Below are positions 22,619-48,876 of a stretch of DNA of 64,000 bases, piece by piece (position 1 is the stretch's first letter; every line of letters begins with the position of its first letter). The notes below the pieces were generated by a model. That model did no database searches. It was not told the DNA's origin and worked only from the letters and a program-made list of their open reading frames with translations. Origin of the DNA: Acidobacteriota bacterium (GTDB lineage: Bacteria; Acidobacteriota; Terriglobia; Terriglobales; Acidobacteriaceae). The stretch covers positions 558,001-622,000 of the forward strand of contig JAJZBZ010000001.1 in NCBI GenBank assembly GCA_021846275.1, written 5' to 3'. A program made the position numbers and the translations under genes.

Positions 22619-23410
22619 ATGGCCACCGCCGCACGCCCTGATGCACACTCCAGCCCTGTCGGTCGCGGTGTTGAGCCGCTGCGCGCCGGAAAAGGCCACT
22701 CGTTTCTGCTGCGCAAGCTGCATTCGCTCTCCGGCATCGTGCCCATCGGCGCGTTTCTCATCGAGCATCTGCTGTCAAACTTTGAAGCGCTCAAAGGGCC
22801 ACTGGCCTACGCCGAGCAGGTCAAATTTCTGAACAGTCTTCCGCTGGTGCGATTTCTTGAGGTCGGCCTGATCTTCATCCCGCTCGCCTATCACGCGCTC
22901 TATGGCGTCTACATCGCGCTGCGCGGCAAGGCCAACGTGATCTATTACCCGTGGTCGGGCAACTGGATGTACATGATGCAGCGCTGGACCGGCTACATCG
23001 CCTTCGTCTACATCATCCAGCACGTCATACGGCAGCGCTTCATGGGCGTGAGCCTGCCAGAGCATCCCGGCGCGGCATTCCACAAGGTGCAGATGGAGCT
23101 GTCGAACCCGTGGATGCTGGCCGTTTATGTGATCGCGATGATCGCGGTCTGCTGGCATTTCTCCTACGGCATCTGGCTCTTCGCCGCCAAGTGGGGCATC
23201 ACGCCGGGAGCCACGGCGCGTCGCCGCTTTGGATATCTCTGCGCCGCGCTCGGCGTCATTCTTGCCGTGATGGGACTGGCCAGCATCTACGCTTTTGTTG
23301 GACCGAATTACAAAAATGCGCCGGACGATGTGATGCCGGCACAAACGCGTCTGGTGCAACCGATGCCGCCGCAAGCAAACTTGACTGTGGAGATCGAGAC
23401 GCACGCATAG
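22619..23410 (+). CDS. sdhC: Succinate dehydrogenase cytochrome b subunit
   Basis: This 263-aa single membrane anchor of a type-B succinate:quinone oxidoreductase has five hydrophobic segments. Candidate haem ligands are visible as histidines in LHSLSGIVPIGAFLIEHLL, YHALYGVYI, YIIQHVIRQRF and CWHFSYGIW, enough for two haems b as in Bacillus- and Wolinella-type enzymes. The gene heads an sdhC-A-B operon with no sdhD, consistent with this type. It has a promoter-like pair upstream, and sdhA follows after 75 bp. Confidence 0.93.
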   Translation: MATAARPDAHSSPVGRGVEPLRAGKGHSFLLRKLHSLSGIVPIGAFLIEHLLSNFEALKGPLAYAEQVKFLNSLPLVRFLEVGLIFIPLAYHALYGVYIALRGKANVIYYPWSGNWMYMMQRWTGYIAFVYIIQHVIRQRFMGVSLPEHPGAAFHKVQMELSNPWMLAVYVIAMIAVCWHFSYGIWLFAAKWGITPGATARRRFGYLCAALGVILAVMGLASIYAFVGPNYKNAPDDVMPAQTRLVQPMPPQANLTVEIETHA

Positions 23411-23485
23411 CACCTGGATTACAGAGTGTCACCGCTTCGCAGCGGATCGTGCGCGAGCGGATAGGAAAGGACAGGAATCAATCTC

Positions 23486-25264
23486 ATGGCGGCACCGAAA
23501 ATTATCGTCGTTGGTGGTGGGCTGGCCGGTCTTGCAGCGGTCATCAAGATTGCCGAGGCGGGCGGCAACGTGGACCTGTTTTCCATCGTCCCGGTCAAGC
23601 GTTCTCACTCGGTCTGCGCGCAGGGCGGCATCAACGCGGCCAAGAATCTGAAGGGCGAGGGCGACACCACCTGGAAGCACTTTGACGACACCATCTACGG
23701 CGGCGATTTCCTGGCTAATCAGACGCCGGTGAAGGCGATGTGCGAGGCCGCGCCGGGCATCATCGACCTGCTCGACCGCATGGGCGTTCCTTTCAACCGC
23801 ACGCCGGAGGGACTGCTTGATTTTCGCCGCTTCGGCGGCACGCTCTATCACCGCACAGCCTTTGCCGGCGCGACGACTGGCCAGCAGTTGCTCTACGCGC
23901 TCGACGAGCAGGTGCGCCGTTATGAGTCCGAGGGCCGCGTGCGCAAGTTTGAAGGCTGGGAGTTCCTCTCCGCTGTGCTGGATTCCGAAGGTGTCGCGCG
24001 CGGCATCTGCGCCATGAATCTGCGCTCGATGGAGCTGGTCACGTTTCCCGCAGACGCCATCATCGTCGCCACCGGAGGCAACGGCGCCATCTTCGGCAAG
24101 AGCACGAACTCGGTCGTCTGCACCGGCTCGGCGCAGGCGGCGCTCTATCAGCAGGGTGCGTATTACGCGAACGGCGAATTCATTCAGGTTCACCCCACGT
24201 CGATCCCCGGCGAGGACAAGCTGCGCCTGATGTCGGAGTCTGCGCGAGGCGAGGGCGGTCGCGTATGGGTGCCGCGCACGGCGGGCGACAAGCGCGAAGC
24301 CAAATCGATTCCAGAGAACGAGCGCTGGTACTTCCTCGAAGAGTGGTATCCGAAATACGGCAACCTTGTTCCGCGCGACGTGGCCACGCGCGCCATTCAC
24401 AAGGTTGTCTACGAGCACGGACTCGGCATCGACGGCCAGCCGATGGTCTATCTCGACCTGACGCACATTGACCGCGCCACGCTGGACCGCAAGCTGGAAG
24501 GCATTCTCGAAATCTACGAGAAGTTTGTCGGTGACGATCCGCGCGAAGTGCCGATGAAGATTTTCCCTGGCATGCACTATACGATGGGCGGACTGTGGGT
24601 GGATTTCAACCAGATGACCAACATCCCCGGCATCTTCGCCGCGGGCGAGGCCGAGTATCAGTACCACGGCGCGAATCGCCTGGGCGCGAATTCGCTGGTC
24701 AGTTGCATCTTCGGTGGCTTTATCTCCGGACCAAATGCCGTGGCTTACGCCAAGTCGCTGAAGCCGGCACAGGGCGACGGCGGACACGCGCAGGAACTGA
24801 CGCGGCAGCGGGCGCTGAACCAGCAACTGCTCAGCTCCAGCGGCACGGAGAATCCATTCCGCATCTGGCGCGAACTGGGCGAGACGATGACCAAAAACGT
24901 GACCGTCATCCGCTACAACAAGAACATTCTGGAGACGGAGGCGAAGATCGTCGAGCTGATGGATCGTTATCGCAACATCAACCTGAGCGACCGCAGCCAG
25001 TGGGCCAATACCAGCTTCGCCTTCACGCGCCAGCTCTGGAACATGCTTCAGATCGGACGCGTCATTGCGCAGGGCGCGCGGCTGCGCGATGAGTCGCGCG
25101 GCGCTCACTATAAGCCGGACTTCCCGGATCGCAACGACGAGAAGTTTCTGAAGACGACCAAAGCCAGCTACGATGCTGCGGCCAACGAGCCGCGCTTCGA
25201 GTATGAGGATGTGGACATTCAGCATATTGCTCCGCGCCCGCGCCGCTACGACGCGGCAAGCTGA
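23486..25264 (+). CDS. sdhA: Succinate dehydrogenase flavoprotein subunit
   Basis: SdhA (592 aa) oxidises succinate to fumarate with covalently bound FAD. Visible are the Rossmann motif VVGGGLAGLAAV, the flavin-linking His41 in KRSHSVCAQGG, the substrate loop with HPTSIPGEDKLRLMSE, the MHYTMGGLWVDF block and GANRLGANSLVSC near the C-terminal FAD site. GGAAAGGA lies upstream of the ATG. It belongs to the type-B family (no separate sdhD). It sits between sdhC and sdhB and is cotranscribed with them. Confidence 0.96.
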   Translation: MAAPKIIVVGGGLAGLAAVIKIAEAGGNVDLFSIVPVKRSHSVCAQGGINAAKNLKGEGDTTWKHFDDTIYGGDFLANQTPVKAMCEAAPGIIDLLDRMGVPFNRTPEGLLDFRRFGGTLYHRTAFAGATTGQQLLYALDEQVRRYESEGRVRKFEGWEFLSAVLDSEGVARGICAMNLRSMELVTFPADAIIVATGGNGAIFGKSTNSVVCTGSAQAALYQQGAYYANGEFIQVHPTSIPGEDKLRLMSESARGEGGRVWVPRTAGDKREAKSIPENERWYFLEEWYPKYGNLVPRDVATRAIHKVVYEHGLGIDGQPMVYLDLTHIDRATLDRKLEGILEIYEKFVGDDPREVPMKIFPGMHYTMGGLWVDFNQMTNIPGIFAAGEAEYQYHGANRLGANSLVSCIFGGFISGPNAVAYAKSLKPAQGDGGHAQELTRQRALNQQLLSSSGTENPFRIWRELGETMTKNVTVIRYNKNILETEAKIVELMDRYRNINLSDRSQWANTSFAFTRQLWNMLQIGRVIAQGARLRDESRGAHYKPDFPDRNDEKFLKTTKASYDAAANEPRFEYEDVDIQHIAPRPRRYDAAS

Positions 25265-25344
25265 GCGGGGACGAGCGCGGCAGGAACGAAAACCCTGGGT
25301 ACGAATTTCACCGCTGGCAGCCGACCGGCACGGGAGAGAAGACG

Positions 25345-26094
25345 ATGGCAGAGAAGCTCATACAGATCGAGATCAAGCGCCAGAGCGGGCCGGACGCGCC
25401 GTCCACCTGGGAGCGGTTTGAGATTCCGTGGAAGCCGGGCATGAATGTGATCTCCGCCATGATGGAGATTGCGGCCAACCCGGTCAACTCGAGTGGCCAG
25501 GAGACGACGCCCATCGCCTATGACTCCAACTGCCTGGAAGAAATCTGCGGCTCCTGCGCGATGGTCATCAACGGCAAGGCGCGCATGGCCTGTACGGCGC
25601 TGGTGGACAAGCTGGAGCAGCCGATCCGGGTGCAGCCGCTCACGAAGTTTCCTGTCGTACGCGATCTCGCCGTGGACCGCAGCGTATTGTTTGAGAACCT
25701 GAAGGCCGTCAAGGCCTGGGTGCCCGTCGACGGAACCTACGATCTCGGCTCCGGGCCGCGCATCTTTCCGCAGCAGCAGGAAGCGGCCTATCCGCTGTCG
25801 AACTGCATCAGTTGCTGCTGCTGCATGGAGGTTTGTCCGCAGTTCAACGATGCAACCGGCTTCGTCGGCGCGGCCACCATTGCACAGGTGAAGCTCTTCA
25901 ACTCCCACCCGTCGGGCAAGGTGCTCAAGGAGGAGCGTCTGCGCGCCCTGGCCGGCGACGGCGGCGTGCAGGAGTGCGGCTTCGCGCAGAACTGCGTGCA
26001 GGCCTGCCCGAAGCAGTTGCCGCTTACCGAGGCCATCTCCGACGTGACGCGCGATGTCACGCTTCAGGCGGCGAAGGATTTCCTCCGCGCCTGA
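25345..26094 (+). CDS. sdhB: Succinate dehydrogenase iron-sulfur subunit
   Basis: SdhB (249 aa) relays electrons from FAD to the quinone. The [2Fe-2S] region is LEEICGSCAMVINGKARMAC, and the [4Fe-4S]/[3Fe-4S] cysteines are in NCISCCCCMEVCPQF and ECGFAQNCVQACPKQLPL. The first [4Fe-4S] motif has four Cys close together (CISCCCC), one more than needed, which is a small oddity. A strong terminator starts 34 bp after the stop, closing the operon. Confidence 0.95.
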   Translation: MAEKLIQIEIKRQSGPDAPSTWERFEIPWKPGMNVISAMMEIAANPVNSSGQETTPIAYDSNCLEEICGSCAMVINGKARMACTALVDKLEQPIRVQPLTKFPVVRDLAVDRSVLFENLKAVKAWVPVDGTYDLGSGPRIFPQQQEAAYPLSNCISCCCCMEVCPQFNDATGFVGAATIAQVKLFNSHPSGKVLKEERLRALAGDGGVQECGFAQNCVQACPKQLPLTEAISDVTRDVTLQAAKDFLRA

Positions 26095-26254: not shown

Positions 26255-27640
26255 ATGCTCCGCATCCCGTCCGCAGTGGCTCTTGCCCTTGCTCTTGTGT
26301 CTCCTGCCATGACCCGCGCGCAATCCACACCATCGAAGTCGACACAAGCGGAGCCAGCGCAGGCAAAATCCGCGCCCGCTGGTGCGCATCGCGCTGCGAA
26401 GCTCACGCCGGAGCAGGTGCATCGCGCTGCCATCATCATCGACACGCACGAGGACACGCCGCAGCGGCTCGTCGACGACCATTACGATCTGGCGGATCCG
26501 CTCGGCTCCGGCCAGGTCAATCTCGAAGCGATTCACAAGGGCAATCTCGGCGCGGCGTTTTTTTCCATCTGGGTCGAGCCGAAGCTCTATCAGGGCCAGT
26601 ACGCGCACCGCACTCTGGAGCTGATCGACGCCACACGCAACCAGGCCGCGCGCCATCCGGATCAGATTCGCTTCACCACCACGGCTGATGGGATTGTTGC
26701 CGCGCACCGCGAGCATAAATTCGCGCTGCTCATGGGCATCGAGGGCGGCCACTCCATCGAACACTCGCTCGCGCTGCTGCGCATGTACTACGATCTTGGC
26801 GTCCGCTACATGACGCTCACCTGGTCCAATTCCAACGGCTGGGCGGATTCCTCCGGCGACGCCGACGATACAAGCGTGCCTCACACCGCCGACGGCCTGA
26901 GTGACTTCGGCAAGGATGTCGTCTACGAGATGAATCGCCTCGGCATGATAGTCGATGTCTCCCATGTTTCAGACAAGACTTTCTATCGCACACTCATCGT
27001 CAGCCGCGCACCGGTCATCGCGTCCCACTCCGGCGCGCGCGCGTTGTGCGATGCGCCGCGCAACATGACCGACGACATGCTGCGCGCCATCGCGCGCTCC
27101 GGCGGACCGGAGTCCAAGGGCGGCGTCGTGATGGTCAACTTCTATTCGGGCTTCATCTCGCAGGCCTATCGCAACGCGCAGATCGCCCAGCGCCCGGAGG
27201 TTCTGAAGGCCGAGCAGGCTCTGCGTGAGCAGTTCAAGGCCGAGGGCCGCACGCTCACCTATGGCGACCTCGACAAGGTGGATCGCGAATACGCCAATCG
27301 CATTCCGCGCCCGCCGCTGTCGGACCTGATTGACCAGATCGACCACATCGCCAAAGTGGCCGGCATCGACCACGTCGGCATTGGCACCGACTTCGACGGC
27401 ATCTCCGGCCAACTGCCGCAGGGCATCGACTCCGCCGCCGACCTGCCGAAGGTGACCGCCGCACTGATGGCGCGTGGTTACTCGCCGACCGACTGCGACA
27501 AGATTCTCGGCGGCAACTTCCTGCGCGTTTTTCACGAGATCGAGCAGGTCAGCCACCAGCTTCAGGCGCAGGCGGGGCAATCGCAGACGCGCCCGCGCAT
27601 CACCGTCATGCAGCCCCACTCAACCGCCCCCGCGCGTTGA
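26255..27640 (+). CDS. Exported M19 (renal dipeptidase-like) membrane dipeptidase
   Basis: This 461-aa zinc dipeptidase has a Sec signal peptide (MLRIPSAVALALALVSPAM). The binuclear-zinc residues are visible: IIDTHEDTP (usually DxHND), the bridging Glu and His in MGIEGGHSIEHS, SHSGARALC, and DHVGIGTDFDG near the end. An Ala/Pro/Lys-rich linker follows the signal. It probably acts in the periplasm on dipeptides, including those containing D-amino acids. The start at 26255 is chosen because the signal peptide begins there. It follows the sdh terminator, so it has its own promoter; TAGAAT at 26196 is a possible -10. Confidence 0.9.
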   Translation: MLRIPSAVALALALVSPAMTRAQSTPSKSTQAEPAQAKSAPAGAHRAAKLTPEQVHRAAIIIDTHEDTPQRLVDDHYDLADPLGSGQVNLEAIHKGNLGAAFFSIWVEPKLYQGQYAHRTLELIDATRNQAARHPDQIRFTTTADGIVAAHREHKFALLMGIEGGHSIEHSLALLRMYYDLGVRYMTLTWSNSNGWADSSGDADDTSVPHTADGLSDFGKDVVYEMNRLGMIVDVSHVSDKTFYRTLIVSRAPVIASHSGARALCDAPRNMTDDMLRAIARSGGPESKGGVVMVNFYSGFISQAYRNAQIAQRPEVLKAEQALREQFKAEGRTLTYGDLDKVDREYANRIPRPPLSDLIDQIDHIAKVAGIDHVGIGTDFDGISGQLPQGIDSAADLPKVTAALMARGYSPTDCDKILGGNFLRVFHEIEQVSHQLQAQAGQSQTRPRITVMQPHSTAPAR

Positions 27641-27742: not shown

Positions 27743-30526
27743 CTAATGCATTTGCACATTGCGGATGCGCGCGATTTGCTGCATGACCTCATCTATCTTT
27801 GGCCTGGCATTTCGGGCGGCGGTGCGCAGATCGGCGACTTGGACGGGCGTCAGGTACCAGGAGAGCGGCTGGATGCTGGAATCTGCGTCAGGCTCGGACG
27901 TGGCCGCCTGTTGGTGAAAATTTGACCGTGAAGTTTGGCTCTGATCCAGGGGTTGAGATGAATCCGCATAGGAGATCGGAATATCCACAAAGTGGGCCGA
28001 ATCCAGATGGAGAGCGTCCCGAAGCACGCGAAGATTGCGCTGATTACGCGATGTGATGCTCGCGTGGCCAGCGTTGTAGAAGACCTGAAGGACGGCGTTA
28101 ATTTGTCCCAGGGAGTTGAGTGGGGTGGCGCGGCCGGATGGACTGGAGACTTGATCCACCAGCCGGTTTGGGTCTTCGGTGGCCGGATCGCTCCCATCGC
28201 GAATCTCGATGAGAATGATCGAGTAGCTGGAGGGCTGGGGCGCGCTTGCGCCAGAGGGAGATGCCGAGCGTGGCGAAGGCGCTTTTGGGGCGGCGACGGC
28301 GGGTGGCGAGCTGACGGAGTGGCCAAGCGCGGAGTAGAGGAACTCCAGTGCGGATGCGACACCGTCATTGTCGTAGTAACCGCCGTCGGCGAAGTGTACG
28401 GCGTTTTGGAGTTTGACCTCGCTCGGAGGCGGTGCCAGATGGTAGCCGTGCGGAATTCTGGCGACCGATGAGACAAAGGAAAACGATGCCGACATCTGCG
28501 CGGCAGTGGCGAGCGGCAGATCGGGATACTCCGGCGCACTGTCCTTGCCGTTGTGCCGCATCAGGCGTCCATAGACTTCGAGGAAAGAACTGGACTGGAC
28601 GAAGATAGGCGCGGATTCTTCGGTGGAATGGGGCAGTCCGTAGTTGGAGAGCCGGAATCGCTCGCCGTTTTCAACAACAGTCGTGTTCATGGTGATGGCT
28701 GGAAATGGATAGCGCGCATCGCTGGTCGGCAGGGTGCTGCGCAGCGTGAACTGGCTGGGATGCGCGTAGAGTGAGTCAGGCTGCGCGCTCTCCAGCTGTT
28801 CCAGCGAGGCGCGTGTCTGCGCATCGAAGCAGTCGTGATCCGTAAGGTTGCGCGCAAAAGAAGCGCGCAGTGCCCAGCTTCGATCACGCAGAGCTGCGGG
28901 TTCGAGCGAGAAATCTCCGCCGCTGCTGCGCGGGAAGGTGGTTAGCGCCTGAAGAAAATCCATGTTCGTCAGTCCCCAGGCGACGGCTTCGAGGCTTGAG
29001 CATCTGGCGGACTCGAACATGCGCTTCGTCGCTTGCCGCGGGTGCTCGAAGGGATCGTTCGCCGTATATTCATGAAGGAAGGACAAGGCACCCGCGCTGC
29101 CACCGGAGACGGTGCTGAGCAGGACAAGGTGGTCATGAAAGTTATAACTTCCATGAAAGTCCTGCTGCGACTGTTCTTCTAACTTGCCGAGTATCTGAGC
29201 GGTCCATGCGGCGGCGTGAATGCCCCCTCCGGTAGCCGTCACGATGATGATTGGCTCGGATTTTGCGGAATCAAACGCCTCCGGCGCGCGATTGCGGATA
29301 AAGTCCGCCGGGGATCGCAGCGCGGGAGCGGGCGTGCTCCGCTCGCGCAACGTGATGTAGCGATCATTGGATTTCGGGTGATAGGCCATGTTCAATATCA
29401 GGAAGATTCCAACCACGACTTCAAGGACGGGAAGTCTCGACCGATCCAGGAGAAACGCGGCGCCGGCGGCGAGCGACAACAGCAAGTTGAAGAGGAGCAG
29501 GACTTCCGCAAAGACCGGGAACCGCTGGGCATCGAAAAATGAATACAACAGGGTAATGATAATCGGAATGACTGCAAGCAAAACGCCGAAACAAAGTCGG
29601 CAGCATATGATCTCAAGACGGCCAGCATCTCTCCGTCTTGCCATGCCGAATCCCACGAAAAAAGCGATGACAACAGAAGCAATGGCTATATTTCCTCCGT
29701 AACTCAGCCGAAGAGGAGCGGCAAGAATCCACTGGAGAAGATAGATCACCAGAAGAGCAAAGAAGGTGATCGTGGCGAAGATATGTCCCTCCCAGAGAAT
29801 CGCGCCAGAAACGCCCTTTTTGCCGTTGGTGCGCTCGCAAACATAGCCCGGTCCGCCGATGCGAGCCAAAGTGGACAGCAGAGACAATAACTTGCGCGCC
29901 ATGAACCCGGGTTGAAACTTTTTGCCCTGGAAGGAATTAAGAAATTTCCAATTCGGCAGGAGCATAATTGGTGCCGGATCAGGATCCTTCTCATCTTTTT
30001 TCGGGCATGCTCCGGAATTGTAGGGTCGGTAGGCTTCTGCATCGTATAGAACGATGTAAACGCAGTTAACAACAAACCAAAAGAAGGCGGCGATGATCAG
30101 GCCGTAGAGCGATCCCAACCAAATCGCGCTTGCGGAAATTCCCTGTCGCTCGGCAAGGGTCCTGATCCAGAAGAAAGAGACGAGAGTGCTGATCTGGCTG
30201 AGAAACAAGGCCAGGAGCGCCCATTTGTTTTTATTACCGCCATGTCCGCCGAGAAGTTTCCAGAAGAAAGCAGGAGCCTCGACGTCAAAACGGTCGTTTC
30301 CGTTGCGGACAACAATTCGCGCCGTGACGAGCGAGAGCGCGCCATTGGATACTAAAAAGAAAGTGTTGACGAGGTAAGACAAACATTGTCCCGGCAGAAA
30401 GATGCCGCGTGTAAACGCGCTTGTGGCGAAGTGATCGACAAGCAAGAGAATCAGCGGAAGCAGCCACAGCAGAAGGCTGAATCGCAGCAGGTAGAGATAA
30501 ACGACAAACTGTCGAATCGAGCGCAC
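27743..30526 (-). CDS. Polytopic membrane protein with C-terminal patatin-like lipase domain
   Basis: In this 927-aa protein, residues 1-380 hold about nine hydrophobic segments (near 8-30, 45-70, 103-122, 135-160, 247-270, 277-295, 311-330, 338-360 and 366-382) with a charged insert around 165-245. Residues about 425-930 are patatin-like: oxyanion loop ATGGGIHAAA, nucleophile G475-x-S477-x-G479 in VSGGSAGAL, and the Asp partner in HFADGGYYDNDG. Patatins are lipid acyl hydrolases. The C-terminal half has a long Pro/Ser/Ala loop. It is the last gene of a minus-strand set with a GMC oxidoreductase and a diheme cytochrome. The substrate is unknown. Confidence 0.8.
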   Translation of the reverse strand: MRSIRQFVVYLYLLRFSLLLWLLPLILLLVDHFATSAFTRGIFLPGQCLSYLVNTFFLVSNGALSLVTARIVVRNGNDRFDVEAPAFFWKLLGGHGGNKNKWALLALFLSQISTLVSFFWIRTLAERQGISASAIWLGSLYGLIIAAFFWFVVNCVYIVLYDAEAYRPYNSGACPKKDEKDPDPAPIMLLPNWKFLNSFQGKKFQPGFMARKLLSLLSTLARIGGPGYVCERTNGKKGVSGAILWEGHIFATITFFALLVIYLLQWILAAPLRLSYGGNIAIASVVIAFFVGFGMARRRDAGRLEIICCRLCFGVLLAVIPIIITLLYSFFDAQRFPVFAEVLLLFNLLLSLAAGAAFLLDRSRLPVLEVVVGIFLILNMAYHPKSNDRYITLRERSTPAPALRSPADFIRNRAPEAFDSAKSEPIIIVTATGGGIHAAAWTAQILGKLEEQSQQDFHGSYNFHDHLVLLSTVSGGSAGALSFLHEYTANDPFEHPRQATKRMFESARCSSLEAVAWGLTNMDFLQALTTFPRSSGGDFSLEPAALRDRSWALRASFARNLTDHDCFDAQTRASLEQLESAQPDSLYAHPSQFTLRSTLPTSDARYPFPAITMNTTVVENGERFRLSNYGLPHSTEESAPIFVQSSSFLEVYGRLMRHNGKDSAPEYPDLPLATAAQMSASFSFVSSVARIPHGYHLAPPPSEVKLQNAVHFADGGYYDNDGVASALEFLYSALGHSVSSPPAVAAPKAPSPRSASPSGASAPQPSSYSIILIEIRDGSDPATEDPNRLVDQVSSPSGRATPLNSLGQINAVLQVFYNAGHASITSRNQRNLRVLRDALHLDSAHFVDIPISYADSSQPLDQSQTSRSNFHQQAATSEPDADSSIQPLSWYLTPVQVADLRTAARNARPKIDEVMQQIARIRNVQMH

Positions 30527-30637
30527 ACTGCACCTCCGTGGGATGGATAGCGTGTGCGGATCGCGTTGCGAGACGACAAAAGCGGTGAACCTGTTTGTTC
30601 CGCGCGCAGTTTCGCAATTCCGCGCGACCCGTTTACG

Positions 30638-32527
30638 CTATCGTTTTTTGATCTCCTCAAGAATCACATCCGCCGCTTTTTCGCCGATCATGTAGACAGC
30701 GGTGAGGATGAACAGCCCCGGAATACGGGGAAACACAGATGCGTCGACGACGCGAAGCCCTTCTGTGCCGTGAACCTTGAAATCACTGCTCAGCACGCCA
30801 CAGTCTTCCTTGTTCCCGATGGGGCAGGTGCAGGAGGCGTGATGGCCCCAGGCATTGTCGCGGACAAACTGACGCAGTTCGTTGTCGGTCTGCACATGGG
30901 GGCCGGGAATCTCTTCCGCAGCAATGATGCCTTGAGCAATTAAATCCTTGGTCATGGTGCGCACGAAGCGAATGCCGGAGACCACGGCATCCAAATCCTC
31001 GCCTTTCTTATCCGTGCCCTCCTGGAAATAGTGGAAATTAATGTACGGAGGGTCGAGAGGATCGCGGGAACGCAGGAGAACTTCACCACCGCGATTCACG
31101 GTGTGCCCCTTGAGGACAGCCCAGGTGAGGACATCGAGTTGTTTGGCAAACTGGGCGGAATAACCCGGATAGTAGCCACGAAAGTATCCGAGCAGAGCGA
31201 AGCAAAGCAGGTCGGGGACCGGCTGAATGCGGCTTGACCTGTGAATGACTGCAAGCACCGAGCCATTGGTGGTGTATACGCCGCTTTTTTTCGCCGCCCA
31301 TTGCGCATACTGGCAGTCGTGCCGGTTGAACTTTGCGCCACAGAGGATGTTCCACGGTTTGGCCATGCGATGGACCACGCCGACCTCATAGCGATCCTGC
31401 AGGTTCTTGCCCACACCTTCGAGAGCAACCTGCACCGGAATTCCCATGCTGCACAGATGCTCCTGTGGACCGATGCCGGAAAGCATCAGTAACTGCGGCG
31501 TGTTATAGGCACCGCCTGCGAGAATTACTTCGCGCGAGGCGAAGGCTTCTCTCCGCTCGCCCTCGGAGTTAGAGGAGGGATTGAATGCGCGATACAGTCG
31601 GGGGCCTTTGAGATAGCGCACACCGACGGCCCGCTTGAGTCCGCTCTCTGAATTCTCCAGAATCACTTCCGTAACATGGGCATCGGTTTCGATCCACAGG
31701 GGATGACTGCGGGCGGCCTCTAGCACGCGCTCGCGCGCTCCCCTGCGCTGGTGATTGTCGGTCATCAGAGGCGTGTAACGAATGCCGACGGCGTTTCTCT
31801 TCACGAGCCGCCAATCATTGGGATCGAGCTGACTTTCGATCAGATCCTCAGCCTGATGGATAGGCTCACCGCTCTCCTGGAAGGCTTTGAATGCGGATGC
31901 GGCGAGAGTTTTCAGTAACTCGCCGCTTCCCAGAGCTTCCGCAGGGATGGCCTTCTCGGTCGTCAGCCAGCCGGACCATCCATGCCGCGAGGGATTGACG
32001 AATGGAATCCATTTGGCAATGGCACGGTCGAAGGGTCGATGACGGCAATTCTCCATGCGCTCGAAGTAGCGCCGCATTTTTTTCGCGCCCCATGATTTGT
32101 CGCCGGTCAGTTCCGCCAGCGAATCCCAGTCAGAGTTCGACGGGTAGATCATGATCATGGCGTTGTGCGCCGTGCATCCGCCCAGGGTGCCCGCGCGGGG
32201 ATAGAAGACGCCGTCGCGGCTGGGAACGAACTTGGAATCCAATTTCTGCTGAGCGAGGTTTGCATAATGGCGGACAAAGAACTCCCAGCTCATCGCCGTA
32301 TTCTCGCTGGACATGGGGTGGAAGACAGGAACCTCGTAGTCTTCGGGCATTGTATTCACGCCTGGACCACTGTTCGGGTCGCTGCCCGTAAGCGTCGCCG
32401 GATCGCCTCCGGCTTCGAGCAGCAACACTTTGTGGCCCGCCTCGGCCAGGCGCGCTGCGACCGTGCCACCTCCTGCGCCCGATCCAACCACGATGAACTC
32501 AAAGTCTTCATTTTTCTCCGGAGACAT
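30638..32527 (-). CDS. GMC-family FAD oxidoreductase
   Basis: This 629-aa flavoprotein is of the glucose-methanol-choline family, which oxidises alcohols, sugars or sterols. The FAD motif VVGSGAGGGTVAARLAEAGH is at the N-terminus (GSGAGG at 15-20), with AGTLGGCTAHNAMIMIY and LAGGAYNTPQLLMLSGIG in the middle. The catalytic C-terminal block is WGHHASCTCPIG, followed by LRVVDASVFPRIPG. The start at 32527 is preferred because AAGGAG lies 8 nt upstream; ATG at 32533 or 32557 is possible. No signal peptide is visible, so the enzyme looks cytoplasmic although its upstream neighbour is an exported cytochrome. The gap to that gene is 84 bp. Confidence 0.88.
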   Translation of the reverse strand: MSPEKNEDFEFIVVGSGAGGGTVAARLAEAGHKVLLLEAGGDPATLTGSDPNSGPGVNTMPEDYEVPVFHPMSSENTAMSWEFFVRHYANLAQQKLDSKFVPSRDGVFYPRAGTLGGCTAHNAMIMIYPSNSDWDSLAELTGDKSWGAKKMRRYFERMENCRHRPFDRAIAKWIPFVNPSRHGWSGWLTTEKAIPAEALGSGELLKTLAASAFKAFQESGEPIHQAEDLIESQLDPNDWRLVKRNAVGIRYTPLMTDNHQRRGARERVLEAARSHPLWIETDAHVTEVILENSESGLKRAVGVRYLKGPRLYRAFNPSSNSEGERREAFASREVILAGGAYNTPQLLMLSGIGPQEHLCSMGIPVQVALEGVGKNLQDRYEVGVVHRMAKPWNILCGAKFNRHDCQYAQWAAKKSGVYTTNGSVLAVIHRSSRIQPVPDLLCFALLGYFRGYYPGYSAQFAKQLDVLTWAVLKGHTVNRGGEVLLRSRDPLDPPYINFHYFQEGTDKKGEDLDAVVSGIRFVRTMTKDLIAQGIIAAEEIPGPHVQTDNELRQFVRDNAWGHHASCTCPIGNKEDCGVLSSDFKVHGTEGLRVVDASVFPRIPGLFILTAVYMIGEKAADVILEEIKKR

Positions 32528-32611
32528 ACGCATTTCTCCTTGCTGGCTGACTTCCATGCGCGCCTTGCAGCTTCATACACCCCGCGCACGCGGCTCACGC
32601 TGAGCACAGTC

Positions 32612-35179
32612 CTAAAATGTTTTGAGAAACTCGATCAGTGCCTGCTTGTCGGCATCGCTGAGCGGTGGCTCCTGCTGAATGCCGGAATCCTGTAATGCCG
32701 GGGTCCTGAGTAATTCGTTGAAGAATGGGGTTCCAAAATAATGACCCTTGTTGACGACATAATCCGGGCATTTGCTCAGAGCCTCCAACCGGGGAGCAAT
32801 CCTGTCGAAGGCGGCCTGAAGCTGTGCGTTGTCCGGAGTTGATCCCAGATTGCCTACCTTGTGTTGATAACCGAGCATCAGCCATGCCACGTAGGCGAGA
32901 CGTTTCACGCGCGCCCAATTGCTGTCGCTGTCTCCAAGAAGATCGATGTTCGAGACCAGGCCAACCGGCATGCCAGCGGGAAATGGGCCAATTCGGACCC
33001 CATTCTTATCGAAGAGCCAGGGTAATAACGCCTGTTCCAATCCGGAGGCGCTACGGAGTATCCAGGGAAGATATCCATAAGCGACCGTAATCGAGCTTTG
33101 CCGCGTTGTGCGATCAATGTGGCTTGGCCATGGAGTGGTGGGAAGATAATGCACGCCGGGCGGAAGACTGGCGGCCTGGTCACTATCCTTGGCGCGAGTC
33201 TCCGGCCATAGCATCTGATGAATGGAGTTGTTGAAGCTGTCCATGCGAGCTTCGACCGAAGGGCTGGGATTGAAGGTTCCCACGCTGTTGTTCAACAGAA
33301 ACGGTGCAGTGGACCACACACTGATAAGACTTGGAACTCGTGTATAGCCACGTCCTCCGGCAGGCATTTTGTAGTCAACCAGCTTGCCTGTTAGCGCATC
33401 GCTATAACGAATGACGCCGACCGAGGGCAGTTCCTTATAACTCTGCGAGGAAAAGTTATCCCAGATGTTACCTCCAATGGCATTCGTGGCCAGCGGGCTG
33501 GCGGCATTCGTGCCCAGAAGGGTAACGGGAATGCGGGCGTCAGTGGAAAGGTAGTTCTTGTCGAGAAAATCCGGAGAGAGAACAATCTTTTGCATCTCGG
33601 ACTTAAACTGATCGGTCTGCGAATAGCGGAAGTAACGGACGAAACAAGCCATGTAATTGCTGCCCGCGCATCCGGCCAGATCGTCCTGTGGTGGCAACTG
33701 AGGCAGCTTGCTGGAGTGGCAGCGCGCACAGCGTTCGGCGAAGATGATTTTTCCGCGCGTCAGTTGCGTACGGTCTGCAGTCAAATAAGTCTTGCCGCCA
33801 GGGGCATCGCTCAGACGCTGTGGATCAGTGCTCACCAGCATGAAGCGGGCCAGATCGACAGTTTGATCTTCGGTCGCTCTCCAATAGGCGGAGTTTTTTT
33901 CGAGCGTTGCAATCGGCATTGGGGTGATCTTCTTGCCGCCGATGAGGGGGTTAAAGTGTTGCAACCACTCCTCACTGAAGAGGCCAATGTTGATATAAAC
34001 ACGGTTCAAAGCACCCAGCGTTCCGACAGAATCAGACCCGTCCTTCAGGACGCGCGCCGTAAAGACAGTTTCAGGCGGAGTGAAAAATTGATAGAGGTCC
34101 GAGGCGGATGGATAGTCATTGAACTGCTTGTTATTCAGTTGCCCGCCCGCGATCCGCTCCTTGCCCCACCTAAATGCCATGGCCAGCCGCGCGTTCAGGT
34201 CGTAGACGGCATTCATGGTGCGTGGATTGTTGATGTTATCGGTAGATACCAGCGAAGTATCGAGCGAACCTGGGCGGGACGTGTGAAAGAGCTGATAGAA
34301 ATAGAGTTTCTGGTCACCGTTCCAGTTAAAGATGCGATCAATCCAGAAATACTGCGCGCCCACCATGGAGCTTAAGTTTTCCCACTTCGGGTTGTTGGGG
34401 TCGGCAGGAGGCTTGAGTGGGTTCGGACCGACATGGCAGAAGCCGCAGGACATTCCAACGCGATACGGTTTTACCAGCTTAGCGTCGTTGTAATACGTGG
34501 GATCGGTGTAATAGCGCACAGGATCCCAGTGCCTCCTGGCCTTTTCGTCGAAGTTGGGATTGGGAAACAGACGCAGACCGACGATCCCCGTCGGGTAGCC
34601 GTAGTAAGAGCCAACCTCGACGGTCTTGCCACGCGCGCCAATTTTGACGCCGGGATACTTATCAGCGTTTTCGAATGGGTCCGGAGGGCAATCCGTACCT
34701 CTCTTGTCAAGCCACAAACCCCATCGGTTTGGGTCGGGACCGCTGGCCTGTGCAAAGCAGGGTTCATTGACGAGACCAAGATAGTCCCAGCGGTTGGATC
34801 GCTTCGCAGGAAGCGCCGGGTAGTCGGAGATGACCTTCAACAGGTCAAGAATGCCGACGCTTTTAGGCGAGATCGCGTCCCAAAAGCGATCATTGCCGCC
34901 AGTCCATACAATCCAGTTGTTGCGACCGATAATCTCATCGCGCGTAAGCTTGATGCCGCCATCCATGTCGTGGAAATAATCTTCATCGGCACCGCGAAGA
35001 CTGTCCGCTGTGCGCCCGGCGCGCATGGCTTCATCCTGGACTTTGCCGATGGTAGAAAGAGGAAAGATAAGCTTCGCCGCGACCACAAGCCCGAGGCACA
35101 CGAACGCAGCGGCGGCAACGATGACCACCCAGCGAACGGCCTTGTATACATTGCGCTGCCCGTTGCTTCTAATGCTCAT
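32612..35179 (-). CDS. Large membrane-anchored diheme cytochrome c (peroxidase/RoxA-like C-terminal part)
   Basis: This 855-aa protein has an N-terminal membrane anchor (about residues 14-38). Two haem c motifs are visible, CGFCH (C245-H249) and CARCH (C484-H488), 239 residues apart. Downstream, RVPSLISVWSTAPFLLNNSV resembles the block ...L..W.TAPYLHNGSV shared by bacterial diheme cytochrome c peroxidases and the rubber oxygenase RoxA group. It is longer than either family (about 350 and 680 aa) because of an N-terminal region of about 240 residues. AAGGAG precedes the ATG at 35179. It is the first gene of a set with a GMC oxidoreductase and a patatin-like protein. Substrate and reaction are unknown. 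Confidence 0.8.
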   Translation of the reverse strand: MSIRSNGQRNVYKAVRWVVIVAAAAFVCLGLVVAAKLIFPLSTIGKVQDEAMRAGRTADSLRGADEDYFHDMDGGIKLTRDEIIGRNNWIVWTGGNDRFWDAISPKSVGILDLLKVISDYPALPAKRSNRWDYLGLVNEPCFAQASGPDPNRWGLWLDKRGTDCPPDPFENADKYPGVKIGARGKTVEVGSYYGYPTGIVGLRLFPNPNFDEKARRHWDPVRYYTDPTYYNDAKLVKPYRVGMSCGFCHVGPNPLKPPADPNNPKWENLSSMVGAQYFWIDRIFNWNGDQKLYFYQLFHTSRPGSLDTSLVSTDNINNPRTMNAVYDLNARLAMAFRWGKERIAGGQLNNKQFNDYPSASDLYQFFTPPETVFTARVLKDGSDSVGTLGALNRVYINIGLFSEEWLQHFNPLIGGKKITPMPIATLEKNSAYWRATEDQTVDLARFMLVSTDPQRLSDAPGGKTYLTADRTQLTRGKIIFAERCARCHSSKLPQLPPQDDLAGCAGSNYMACFVRYFRYSQTDQFKSEMQKIVLSPDFLDKNYLSTDARIPVTLLGTNAASPLATNAIGGNIWDNFSSQSYKELPSVGVIRYSDALTGKLVDYKMPAGGRGYTRVPSLISVWSTAPFLLNNSVGTFNPSPSVEARMDSFNNSIHQMLWPETRAKDSDQAASLPPGVHYLPTTPWPSHIDRTTRQSSITVAYGYLPWILRSASGLEQALLPWLFDKNGVRIGPFPAGMPVGLVSNIDLLGDSDSNWARVKRLAYVAWLMLGYQHKVGNLGSTPDNAQLQAAFDRIAPRLEALSKCPDYVVNKGHYFGTPFFNELLRTPALQDSGIQQEPPLSDADKQALIEFLKTF

Positions 35180-35744: not shown

Positions 35745-35864
35745 CGTATCTGCTCCGCTGCGTCGTGTGCCTTATGGCGCGGTGATGTGGAGCGCCGTTA
35801 TCGCGCTTTTGCATAGGAGCCGACCTTGCGAGTGCTCGGAAAAATCTCCCCGGCAACGCTACGC

Positions 35865-36065
35865 GGGAGCACCGGCTACTGCGAAAGGTTCAACTCCAAA
35901 ATCCGCAACGAATTTCTAAACGGAGAAATCTTCCATCCCCTGCAGGAGGTGGGCGTGCTGACGGAACGCTGGCGCGTCTACTTCAACTCCAGTCGGCACA
36001 CTCCTGCTGGGCTACAGACATCCAGCGCCGACCACCTGGCGGCCTGGAGTTCTCCAGCGCGATGA
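35865..36065 (+). pseudogene. IS3-family transposase OrfB, C-terminal remnant
   Basis: About 65 residues match the end of the IS3 integrase core: GYCERFNSKIRNEFLNGEIF, then VLTERWRVYFNSSRHTPAG and a final AW block. The glutamate of the DDE triad is expected at this CERFN segment. The rest of OrfB, OrfA and the terminal inverted repeats are missing, so this is a dead relic. An in-frame TTG at 35826 opens a 79-aa frame, but the residues before 35865 are not transposase-like. Confidence 0.75.
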
Positions 36066-43833: not shown

Positions 43834-45288
43834 TCAGAGTCCGCCGATCACGGTGAAGCTGTGGGCAGCGGCTGTGGCGGCGCTGAGCACCCATCCGGGC
43901 GCGATACCGAGCACGAGCGTGGCTGCTCCGGCGGCGAGGACGGCGGCTGAGGTTGCCAGTGTCCAGCGCGGCAGAGTGACGGCGTGGCCGTTCTTCGCCG
44001 CTGGCTGGGCCAGGGCGATGGCGAAGCGCAGGTAGTAGGCTGCGGCGATGCCGGAGTTCAGGAGGCCGATGAGCACGAGCCACGCTGCTCCACCATTCAT
44101 GGCCGTCGAGAAGGAATAAAACTTGGCGAAAAAGCCGCCGGTGAAGGGTATGCCGATGAGCGAGATAAGGAAGAGCAGCATGAGGCCGCCTGTGAGCGGC
44201 GACTGGTGGAGGACGCCGCGGTAATCGGCAATCTGGGAGCGGTGTTCATCGGGGCCGGAGACGAGGCTGAGCAGCGCGAAGATGCCGACGTTCATCGCGG
44301 CGTAGGCAGCAGTGTAAAACGCAATCGCGGTGATCGGCTGGCTGCCAACACCCGCAAGCGCGGCCAGCAGATAACCGGCGTGGGCGATTGATGAGTAGGC
44401 GAGCATGCGCTTGGCATTTGTCTGGCGCAGCGCGGCAAGGTTGCCGACGGTCATCGAGAGGATGGCGACGGCCCAGAGCAGCGGCATCCAGAGCGTGTGC
44501 AGCAGTGGGAAGGCTCCGTAGAGCAGGCGCACGAGCAGTGCGAAGGCGGCAACCTTGGGCGCGGTGCTCATGAGCGCGACGACGGGCGTGGGCGCGCCTT
44601 CGTAAACGTCGGGCGTCCAGACGTGAAAGGGCGCGGCGGAGACCTTGAAGAGCACGCCGACCATCATGAGCGCGAAGGCGAGGATGACCAGCGTGTGGGA
44701 GCGCGCGGCGGGAAGCAGCGTGGCAATCTCCTGAATCTGAGTGGTGCCGGTCGCGCCGAAGAGCATGGCGATGCCGTAGAGCAGGAAGGCCGTGGCGAAG
44801 GAGCCGAGCAGGAAGTACTTGATGGCCGACTCCGGGCCTTGCGCGGTGTGTTTGCGGTATCCGGCCAGGACATAGGTGGAGATCGAGGAGATTTCCAGCG
44901 CGATGAAGACGACCAGCAGCTCGACGGCGGAGGTGAGCAGGCACATCCCGACCGCGCCGAAGACGATCAGCGCGAAGAACTCGCCGCGATGGTGCTGGGG
45001 CAGAGCGTCAATGGAAAGCAGGATGGCGGCCAGAACGATGGCGCAGATGAGCGTGTGAAAAAAGGCCGAGAATGCGTCGGTCTGGACCGTCGCGTAGAAG
45101 GCCGTTCCGGCGGGCAGCGCGGCCTGGCCGAGGCTGGCGCAGAGCGCGATCGTCGTGCCCAGCGCGGCCAGCCAGCCCAGCGGTTTCCGGCTGGAGCGTG
45201 GCGCGAGAGTAGCGTCAGTCAGCATGACAACGACGCCGGTGAGGGTGAGGATGAGTTCGGGCAGAATGCGCAGGATGTCGGGAGTCAT
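43834..45288 (-). CDS. nuoN: NADH-quinone oxidoreductase subunit N, second copy
   Basis: NuoN (484 aa) is an antiporter-like pump. Conserved blocks are the Glu of LLVVFIALEISSISTYVLAG, the helix-7 Lys of GVLFKVSAAPFHVWTPDVYEGAP and LRQTNAKRMLAYSSIAHAGYLLA. It is the last gene of the second operon; its ATG overlaps the nuoM stop (TGATG). The other nuoN (8807-10249) is about the same length but clearly divergent. No hairpin terminator is seen between here and the GH172 gene. Confidence 0.95.
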   Translation of the reverse strand: MTPDILRILPELILTLTGVVVMLTDATLAPRSSRKPLGWLAALGTTIALCASLGQAALPAGTAFYATVQTDAFSAFFHTLICAIVLAAILLSIDALPQHHRGEFFALIVFGAVGMCLLTSAVELLVVFIALEISSISTYVLAGYRKHTAQGPESAIKYFLLGSFATAFLLYGIAMLFGATGTTQIQEIATLLPAARSHTLVILAFALMMVGVLFKVSAAPFHVWTPDVYEGAPTPVVALMSTAPKVAAFALLVRLLYGAFPLLHTLWMPLLWAVAILSMTVGNLAALRQTNAKRMLAYSSIAHAGYLLAALAGVGSQPITAIAFYTAAYAAMNVGIFALLSLVSGPDEHRSQIADYRGVLHQSPLTGGLMLLFLISLIGIPFTGGFFAKFYSFSTAMNGGAAWLVLIGLLNSGIAAAYYLRFAIALAQPAAKNGHAVTLPRWTLATSAAVLAAGAATLVLGIAPGWVLSAATAAAHSFTVIGGL

Positions 45289-46901
45289 CAGCGACCTCCC
45301 TTCAGGTTAGCCGGGGAGCTTGCGATCACGGTGGCGGACTCCGGGTGAGTGGGCGAAAGGTTGGCTGCGTTCCGAGACTGGGCACCCATGCGCAGCGACT
45401 GCGTGATGGATTGCAGGGCAGGCTCGATGGCGTCGGTCGCGAGGCCGGGCTGGATGCCGAGGGCGAGCATGAGCAGCGCGAGCAGCGCGACGGCGACGGT
45501 TTCGCTGCCGGTGAGGTCGCGGGCAGTGGCCGATGGGTGGCCCGCTGCGTGGCCTGTTGCGTGAGCTGGCGCGCCCGTGGCGAGGAAGATTTTCTGTATC
45601 GCGCCAAGCATGTAGGCCGCGCTGAGGATGACGCCGAGCGCGGCGACCGTGGCCCAGACGCGGCTGACGCCGGTGAAGGTTCCCGAGAGCACGAGGAACT
45701 CGCCGACGAAGCCGTTGAGCAGGGGCAGGCCGATGAGCGCGAGGCTGGCGATGGTGAAGAGAGTGGCGAGGCGCGGCGTCTTTGTGGCCAGTCCGCCAAA
45801 GTCGGCCAGCTTGCTGGCGGAGGCGGGTTCGTAGAGCACGCCGAAGAGCAGGAAGAGCGCCGCGCCGATGATGCCTTCGTTCAGGGTTTGCAGCACGGCT
45901 CCGCTCATGCCTGCGGCGGTGAAGCCGTAGATGCCGAGCGTGCAGAAGCTGAGGCTGCCGAGGGTGGCGTAGGCCAGCAGCTTCCAGAAATCCTTTTGCA
46001 CCAGCGCCAGCAGCGCGCCGTAGAGAATGCCGACAGCGGCGAGCGCGATCATCCACGGTGCCGCGCGGTGAGCCAGCGCCGGGAACAGCTCGACATGGAA
46101 GCGGATGAGCGAGTAGAGGCCGAGCTTGCCGGCGGCGATCATGGCGATGGCGACCGGAGCCTCGGAAAAAAGGTCGGGCAGCCAGCCATGGAGGCCAAGC
46201 ACCGGCACCTTGACGGCGAAGGCGATGAGGAAGGCGACTGAGACCCAGGCAAGCTGCCAGCCAGGCAGTGTGCCGCTGGCGATGGCGGCCTGAACGGTTG
46301 CGTAGTCGAAGCTGCCGGTGTGAGCGTAGAGCCAGAGCAGGGCGACCAGCAGCGGCGCGGAGGGAATGAAGGTGTACAGGAAGAAACGCAGCGCGGCCTT
46401 GGCGGCCGAGGCGTCGCCGAGGTTGCGGCCAAACATGGCCGTGAGCACGGCGATGGGGATCAGCGAGAGTTCCCAGAAGCCGTAGTAGAGCATGAGGTCG
46501 AGCGAGACGAAGACGCCGACCATGGCGGTCTGTTGCAGCAGGAAAAGCGCGTAGAAGAGCTTGCGGTCCTTCTTCACCGCGCGCCAGCTTGCCAGGACAC
46601 CGACCGGCGCGAGCAGGCCGACGAGCACCACCAGCCAGAGTGACAGTCCATCCACGCCAACGTGATAGCGAATGGCCGGGGAATTGATCCATGCGAGGTT
46701 CTCTTCAAACTGGAACCCAGTCTGATGCGCGACGAAGTGAGCGGGCAAATGGAGCGTGCAGGCGAAGGTGAAGAGCGAGGTGAGCAGCGCCAGCCACGCC
46801 GGAAGGTTCGTGGACTGTTCGTCGCGATCCGGCAGCAGCAGGATCAGCGCCATTCCGGCAAGAGGTGCGAGAAGAATCAGGGTGAGAATCATGCCGTCCA
46901 T
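45288..46901 (-). CDS. nuoM: NADH-quinone oxidoreductase subunit M, second operon
   Basis: NuoM (537 aa) is an antiporter-like pump with the helix-5 Glu (YYGFWELSLIP), the helix-7 Lys (AFAVKVPVLGLHGWLPDLFSEAP), the next-helix Lys (AAGKLGLYSLIRF) and the Glu of NGFVGEFLVL all present. A hydrophilic stretch near 450-470 (His/Ala/Gly rich) and an extended C-terminal tail after the last helix distinguish it from the two NuoM proteins of the first operon. The nuoL stop lies 4 bp upstream. Only one nuoM is present in this operon. Confidence 0.95.
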   Translation of the reverse strand: MDGMILTLILLAPLAGMALILLLPDRDEQSTNLPAWLALLTSLFTFACTLHLPAHFVAHQTGFQFEENLAWINSPAIRYHVGVDGLSLWLVVLVGLLAPVGVLASWRAVKKDRKLFYALFLLQQTAMVGVFVSLDLMLYYGFWELSLIPIAVLTAMFGRNLGDASAAKAALRFFLYTFIPSAPLLVALLWLYAHTGSFDYATVQAAIASGTLPGWQLAWVSVAFLIAFAVKVPVLGLHGWLPDLFSEAPVAIAMIAAGKLGLYSLIRFHVELFPALAHRAAPWMIALAAVGILYGALLALVQKDFWKLLAYATLGSLSFCTLGIYGFTAAGMSGAVLQTLNEGIIGAALFLLFGVLYEPASASKLADFGGLATKTPRLATLFTIASLALIGLPLLNGFVGEFLVLSGTFTGVSRVWATVAALGVILSAAYMLGAIQKIFLATGAPAHATGHAAGHPSATARDLTGSETVAVALLALLMLALGIQPGLATDAIEPALQSITQSLRMGAQSRNAANLSPTHPESATVIASSPANLKGGR

Positions 46902-46905
46902 ATGC

Positions 46906-48872
<1,967 letters not shown>

Positions 48873-48876
<4 letters not shown>

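Follow-up and report, generated by a model that had tools for sequence, protein, structure and literature searches.

A recurrent diheme cytochrome, GMC oxidoreductase and patatin gene set with a possible role in extracytoplasmic lipid oxidation

The window, a stretch of 64,000 nucleotides from an Acidobacteriota bacterium, carries three adjacent minus-strand genes that encode a large anchored diheme cytochrome c (CYT), a GMC flavoprotein oxidoreductase (GMC) and a polytopic patatin-like lipase. We tentatively favour the reading that this operon represents one form of a mobile module oxidising lipid-derived or hydrophobic substrates outside the cytoplasm, built around CYT and an atypical GMC to which membrane patatins have repeatedly been added. 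As far as is known, the CYT family and the gene set are undescribed, although their parts are of known kinds. The first-pass annotation knew of no described system with this set of genes, and our text searches, which covered a library of largely non-subscription papers, found no description of it either. Annotated plasmid records name the parts only as "cytochrome c", "GMC oxidoreductase", "patatin-like" or "hypothetical". A PADLOC search for a defence system returned nothing except a match to the FAD motif.

The open reading frames agree with an operon read in one direction from CYT (positions 32,612 to 35,179, minus strand; 855 amino acids, distantly RoxA-like) through GMC (30,638 to 32,527, minus strand) to the patatin (27,743 to 30,526, minus strand; 927 amino acids, GTG start). 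GMC comprises 629 amino acids from its best start at 32,527, which is M11 of the longest open reading frame, beginning at 32,557. With this start, 84 bp separate CYT from GMC and 111 bp separate GMC from the patatin. A good Shine-Dalgarno sequence precedes each of the three starts (35,179, 32,527 and 30,526); that upstream of the CYT ATG is AAAGGAGAATTT. The single direction and the two gaps reported in the first-pass annotation were borne out when coordinates, starts and Shine-Dalgarno sequences were checked.

CYT begins with a signal anchor formed by one predicted transmembrane (TM) helix (residues 17-35; 35,075 to 35,131, minus strand). A lipobox-like cysteine is found in 48 of 86 family members, while the window copy has the TM anchor; on both grounds we expect the haem part to lie outside the cytoplasm. 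The two haem motifs, C245GFCH249 (34,433 to 34,447, minus strand) and C484ARCH488 (33,716 to 33,730, minus strand), are 239 residues apart, and their two cysteines and histidine are invariant in all 86 core members compared for motif counts. Towards the C-terminus, an N810-K-G-H813-Y-F-G motif (32,732 to 32,752, minus strand), present in 84 of the 86, is the equivalent of RoxA His641. In our alignment the GGH of RoxA falls at residue 641, whose histidine is the second axial ligand to the C-terminal haem, and the bis-His coordination of this haem by H394 and H641 corresponds by alignment to H488 and H813 of CYT. Seven non-haem residues are invariant as well (K379, D380, R393, V394, N397, W405 and H408). 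The RoxA region containing F317 and W302 is unpaired in the profile alignment; a manual match suggests Lys379 of CYT at W302.

The "peroxidase/RoxA-like C-terminal motif" described in the first-pass annotation is recognisable as a MauG/RoxA-type motif, W622STAPFLLNNSVG634 (33,278 to 33,316, minus strand), but the histidine that defines it is replaced by Leu629, so that the signature PYFHNGSV reads APFLLNNSVG. None of the 86 core members has His at this position; Leu occurs in 74, Gln in 11 and Ile in one. Distant CYT paralogues with a readable motif keep the histidine, and two of them lie in tandem with a core copy, the His-less core CYT standing directly before the His-keeping paralogue (loci L005:9968-14614 and L008:9914-14643). 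The tandem arrangement suggests a division of labour. A strict link between loss of the histidine and the presence of GMC is imperfect, as His-bearing paralogues at two loci (L083 and L140) also adjoin a GMC gene.

When predicted alone, the N-terminal 200 residues of CYT reach a pLDDT of 58 and have no structural match, compared with about 90 within the whole protein. A separate N-terminal domain was rejected because the isolated prediction does not fold and the same part is mostly confident inside the whole protein. Judged from these models, it appears to belong to the body of the enzyme and not to be an add-on.

A scan of public genomes yielded 77 CYT loci, most of them 51-65% identical, from Acidobacteria, alpha-, beta- and gamma-proteobacteria, delta-proteobacterial bins and others; the 21 plasmid records with CYT are all rhizobial. 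CYT belongs to the RoxA/MauG superfamily and lies outside RoxA, RoxB and CcpA. Three results place it there: the CYT profile aligned with RoxA-like proteins over the whole length in hhalign (99.2%); fold comparison gave matches, both only moderate, to MauG (Z 8.0) and to RoxA (Z 7.5 over 358 residues); and NF040606, a di-heme cytochrome c peroxidase model with a cut-off of 150 bits, was matched weakly. The NF040606 match is partial in the window CYT (32 bits) and stays below the cut-off in all 37 aligned CYT proteins (best E 2e-12). The diheme fold core compares with those of MauG and CcpA at Z 6.1-8.0, and a search of the PDB by Foldseek alone found nothing significant for CYT. The profile check proposed with the first-pass annotation thus puts CYT nearer to RoxA-like proteins than to ordinary CcpA, and identity with the latter is ruled out by the motif and by a size of 855 amino acids, twice that of CcpA. 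MauG and CcpA are two-domain proteins of 35-40 kDa without the long N-terminal part, and their signature histidine is missing in CYT.

RoxA and RoxB (PDB 4b2n; PMC6311187, PMC6797691) resemble CYT in being extracytoplasmic and about twice the size of CcpA, in having two CxxCH haems and a C-terminal GH motif (H641 in RoxA), and in a moderate fold match, which is tied with that to MauG. RoxA/RoxB enzymes are of the 70 kDa class with a spacing of about 200 residues between the two CxxCH motifs; CYT, with 855 amino acids and a spacing of 239 residues, conforms to this. In contrast to these enzymes, CYT has lost the MauG-motif histidine in 86 of 86 members, is longer, is anchored at its N-terminus and is tied to GMC. 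PA2077 and PA2078 (FadCcp) of Pseudomonas aeruginosa are diheme RoxA-class fatty-acid enzymes (PMC4496055). Their haem motifs are 245 and 235 residues apart, against 239 in CYT, and their second axial histidine likewise lies near the C-terminus (H611 and H603, against H813). They keep PYFHNGSVP where CYT has APFLLNNSVG, and the paper that describes them (PMC4496055) mentions no GMC, whereas CYT is tied to one.

The characterised RoxA-group enzymes oxidise unsaturated hydrocarbons: rubber or, for PA2077/PA2078, oleic acid (PMC6311187, PMC4496055, PMC5155153). It is mainly for this reason that we favour oxidation of a lipid or other hydrophobic substrate. The oxidation of a hydrophobic compound proposed in the first-pass annotation stands as the best reading, although its polyisoprenoid variant is not supported. 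The curated RoxA, RoxB and RoxC models gave no match to the window CYT and only weak matches in a few relatives (best E 2e-4), and these results, together with loss of the MauG-motif histidine, do not support membership of CYT in the RoxA/RoxB rubber oxygenases.

GMC matches PF00732 and PF05199 above cut-off (85 and 100 bits). Like known GMC flavoenzymes (choline and alcohol oxidases, fatty acid photodecarboxylase), it has N- and C-terminal domains, the FAD motif and a catalytic histidine, the invariant His573 (longest-frame numbering) of the stretch G571-H572-H573-A-S-C-T-C (30,824 to 30,847, minus strand). Unlike them, it has Phe in place of the second catalytic His/Asn, and any solved structure is only distantly similar. 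The residue concerned, Phe616 (30,710 to 30,712, minus strand), aligns with a histidine of 8rpf, and Phe is present at this position in 52 of 55 family members. Because CYT has lost the MauG-motif histidine and the second catalytic residue of GMC is Phe, the chemistry cannot be read across from the characterised enzymes.

In agreement with the first-pass annotation, no signal sequence was found in the window GMC. GMC proteins of the Nitrosospira group carry RRSF...LL(A/T)(S/G)C, a stretch that resembles a Tat-lipoprotein signal and supports the view, from sequence, that GMC may act outside the cytoplasm, in the compartment of CYT, at least in this group. A compartment mismatch between CYT and the window GMC, which has no export signal, is possible.

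Linkage was counted over 56 loci flanked by 6 kb or more on each side, neighbours being scored within 8 kb; the set was gathered with CYT as bait and includes some near-duplicates. GMC is found near CYT at all 56 loci, a recurrence beyond chance, in Acidobacteriota, Proteobacteria and others, usually with CYT directly followed by GMC. The same picture emerged from 396 evenly sampled genomes of the phylum: every core CYT with adequate flank has GMC nearby, and distant CYT paralogues mostly have none.

An invariant CYT-GMC core of this kind, and the Tat-like signals on some Nitrosospira-group GMC proteins, would also fit a flavin dehydrogenase-cytochrome complex, in which a small alcohol, polyol or lipid alcohol is the substrate that GMC oxidises, CYT is a mere electron acceptor and the patatin supplies or recycles the substrate. 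The pairing of a GMC dehydrogenase with an anchored c-type cytochrome is established: fructose and gluconate dehydrogenases are complexes of a GMC flavoprotein with an anchored c-type cytochrome and resemble the operon in having the two genes side by side. Their cytochrome is, however, a small triheme protein, whereas CYT is RoxA/MauG-like, and its large fold and invariant non-haem residues exceed the needs of an electron shuttle. Moreover, no small Tat subunit is encoded within the window, where GMC itself has no signal, and such a complex leaves the recurrent peroxidase neighbours unaccounted for. We consider it a serious rival, though rather unlikely.

These neighbours include a DyP-like peroxidase within 8 kb at 26 of the 56 loci and an animal-type haem peroxidase at four; further RoxA-like diheme proteins lie near CYT at nine. 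The DyP-like peroxidase commonly occurs with a catalase-like protein and two recurrent companions, c2 (about 433 amino acids, with a TM region) and c3 (about 147 amino acids), seen at L031:14478-17699, at L033:14401-18841 and at some 25 further loci; this module stands at some loci in place of a patatin. Neither c2 and c3 nor the catalase-like protein matched any Pfam or NCBIfam model, the last being named by sequence inspection. Animal haem peroxidase-family proteins stand beside or near CYT-GMC at L021:14331-17192, L059:4264-6642 and L050:983-2602. The peroxidase and catalase-like neighbours lend these CYT-GMC loci a peroxide or oxylipin flavour, in keeping with the favoured reading.

Such neighbours raise the alternative of a peroxide-coupled system, with GMC as an oxidase that makes H2O2 and CYT, elsewhere together with the DyP, catalase-like and animal-type peroxidases, using the peroxide on aromatic, polymeric or lipid substrates. 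In fungi, aryl-alcohol oxidase feeds peroxidases; the PDB relatives of GMC include alcohol, choline and aryl-alcohol oxidases, and the CYT fold lies within the diheme peroxidase superfamily. However, c2, the marker of the DyP module, is unmatched in the window genome, which has a single CYT and a single GMC, and the DyP and catalase-like proteins have no obvious signal peptide. As the usual second catalytic residue is missing in GMC and the patatin would be unaccounted for, peroxide coupling, though likewise a serious rival, appears improbable.

The patatin is polytopic, as the first-pass annotation had it: hydropathy predicts nine TM helices (residues 12-383; 29,378 to 30,493, minus strand), followed by a C-terminal patatin domain (residues 422-728; 28,343 to 29,263, minus strand). 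The charge pattern suggests an N-in/C-out topology, which would place this domain in the periplasm. It has the oxyanion motif GGG433-435, the nucleophile elbow T-V-S474-G-G, in which Thr replaces the first Gly of GxSxG, and D714-G-G. Its PF01734 score is 24.1 bits, below the cut-off of 27.7.

Within 8 kb of CYT, 19 of the 56 loci have a membrane patatin and the other two thirds have none. About 0.006 per locus, or about 0.35 over the 56, would be expected by chance; the observed number lies far above this, although the relatedness of the loci makes a nominal p-value unreliable. Mapped on the CYT tree, the patatin label changes at least 14 times, eight of these changes being forced by well-supported branches; the association has therefore been gained or lost many times. 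CYT, GMC and patatin stand in exactly this order on R. johnstonii 3841 pRL11, on S. fredii pSF45436e and at four other Rhizobiaceae loci, and in Mesorhizobium pOM4 GMC and patatin are fused in a single protein of 1562 amino acids. Linkage in relatives, on which the first-pass proposal had been staked, is thus near-universal for CYT and GMC, extends to a membrane patatin in about a third of loci and includes the exact order in Rhizobiaceae. On pRL11, an old-yellow-enzyme-type gene and two diheme genes precede the three; the latter encode RoxA-like proteins of 508 and 491 amino acids with the MauG-type motif intact (L079:5426-8852).

One conserved patatin orthologue was considered and rejected, since at least three arrangements occur beside the CYT-GMC core. 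The window protein has nine TM helices and then the patatin domain; the Rhizobium proteins have a similar layout with little BLAST similarity; and in c5-type patatins (e.g. L062:12526-15612) the domain is apparently split, the half with the catalytic Ser and the half with DGG being separated, mostly by 8-10 TM helices. In Granulicella (L062), which has the CYT closest to that of the window, the order is GMC-CYT-patatin with a c5-type patatin. Across the phylum sample such patatins are found in 9 of 19 genomes with CYT and 23 of 377 others (Fisher p 2.5e-6), even when unlinked, a co-occurrence confounded by shared ancestry. Different membrane patatins are paired with the same CYT-GMC core. Because the window patatin differs from those linked elsewhere, the three-gene unit is a recurrent combination and not one fixed, vertically inherited operon.

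In the 3.3 Mb source genome, CYT and GMC are both single-copy, and CYT was not found in 60 relatives, 14 of them of the same genus. The GC content is 55-58% over the operon and about 62-64% around it. Left of the operon, up to the gene ending at 27,640, and right of it, from 36,176, gene order is kept in close relatives, and both conserved blocks end at the operon, which marks a synteny break. A remnant of an IS-type transposase/integrase core (rve_3, PF13683, E 2e-9; 35,817 to 36,062, plus strand) lies at this break, upstream of the operon, and pieces related to it occur on two other contigs of the source genome. The flanking blocks are not adjacent in relatives, so there is no empty site to prove a simple insertion; horizontal arrival of the operon is the simplest reading. 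Elsewhere in the window, succinate dehydrogenase genes (Sdh_cyt, flavoprotein and 2Fe-2S subunit; 22,619 to 26,094, plus strand) that are strongly conserved in relatives lie near the operon, and there are two separate complex I-type proton-antiporter gene sets (NuoL/M/N-like, PF00361; 3,596 to 10,249, plus strand, and 43,834 to 48,876, minus strand).

The position of the operon at a synteny break beside an IS remnant could mean that CYT and GMC alone are the functional unit and that a rearrangement junction made the window patatin their chance neighbour, the more so as this type of patatin is not linked to CYT in its two nearest relatives. Yet the patatin shares the strand of the other two genes, follows GMC at a distance of 111 bp and is preceded by a Shine-Dalgarno sequence of its own. 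Its GC3 of 0.65 matches the 0.64-0.68 of CYT and GMC, whereas the flanking genes are mostly at 0.72-0.84, with one at 0.58. Membrane patatins are also strongly enriched near CYT, and the GMC-patatin fusion exists. A chance neighbour is therefore very unlikely.

Under the favoured reading, an extracytoplasmic module for lipid-derived or hydrophobic substrates, the membrane patatin would, from its family, first free an acyl chain or other lipid-derived substrate. CYT, anchored to the inner membrane on its outer side or attached as a lipoprotein, would then use O2 or a peroxide to oxidise or oxygenate this substrate at its N-terminal haem, and the bis-His haem at the C-terminal end (H488/H813) would carry electrons; this step is modelled on the distant homologues RoxA and PA2077/PA2078. 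GMC may finally oxidise the resulting alcohol or aldehyde, or may give peroxide or electrons to CYT.

A more far-reaching version, possible but doubtful, is that the operon represents a new oxylipin-type system for extracytoplasmic lipid oxidation, in which a His-less RoxA-superfamily enzyme and an atypical GMC are combined with interchangeable lipase or peroxidase modules and have spread horizontally from phylum to phylum among soil bacteria. The reaction is known for only a few enzymes of the RoxA superfamily. A conserved gene set that crosses phyla and links a divergent branch of this superfamily to a flavoenzyme and a membrane lipase offers a route, open to testing, towards a new pathway for the oxidation of lipids or polymers in bacteria of soils and roots.
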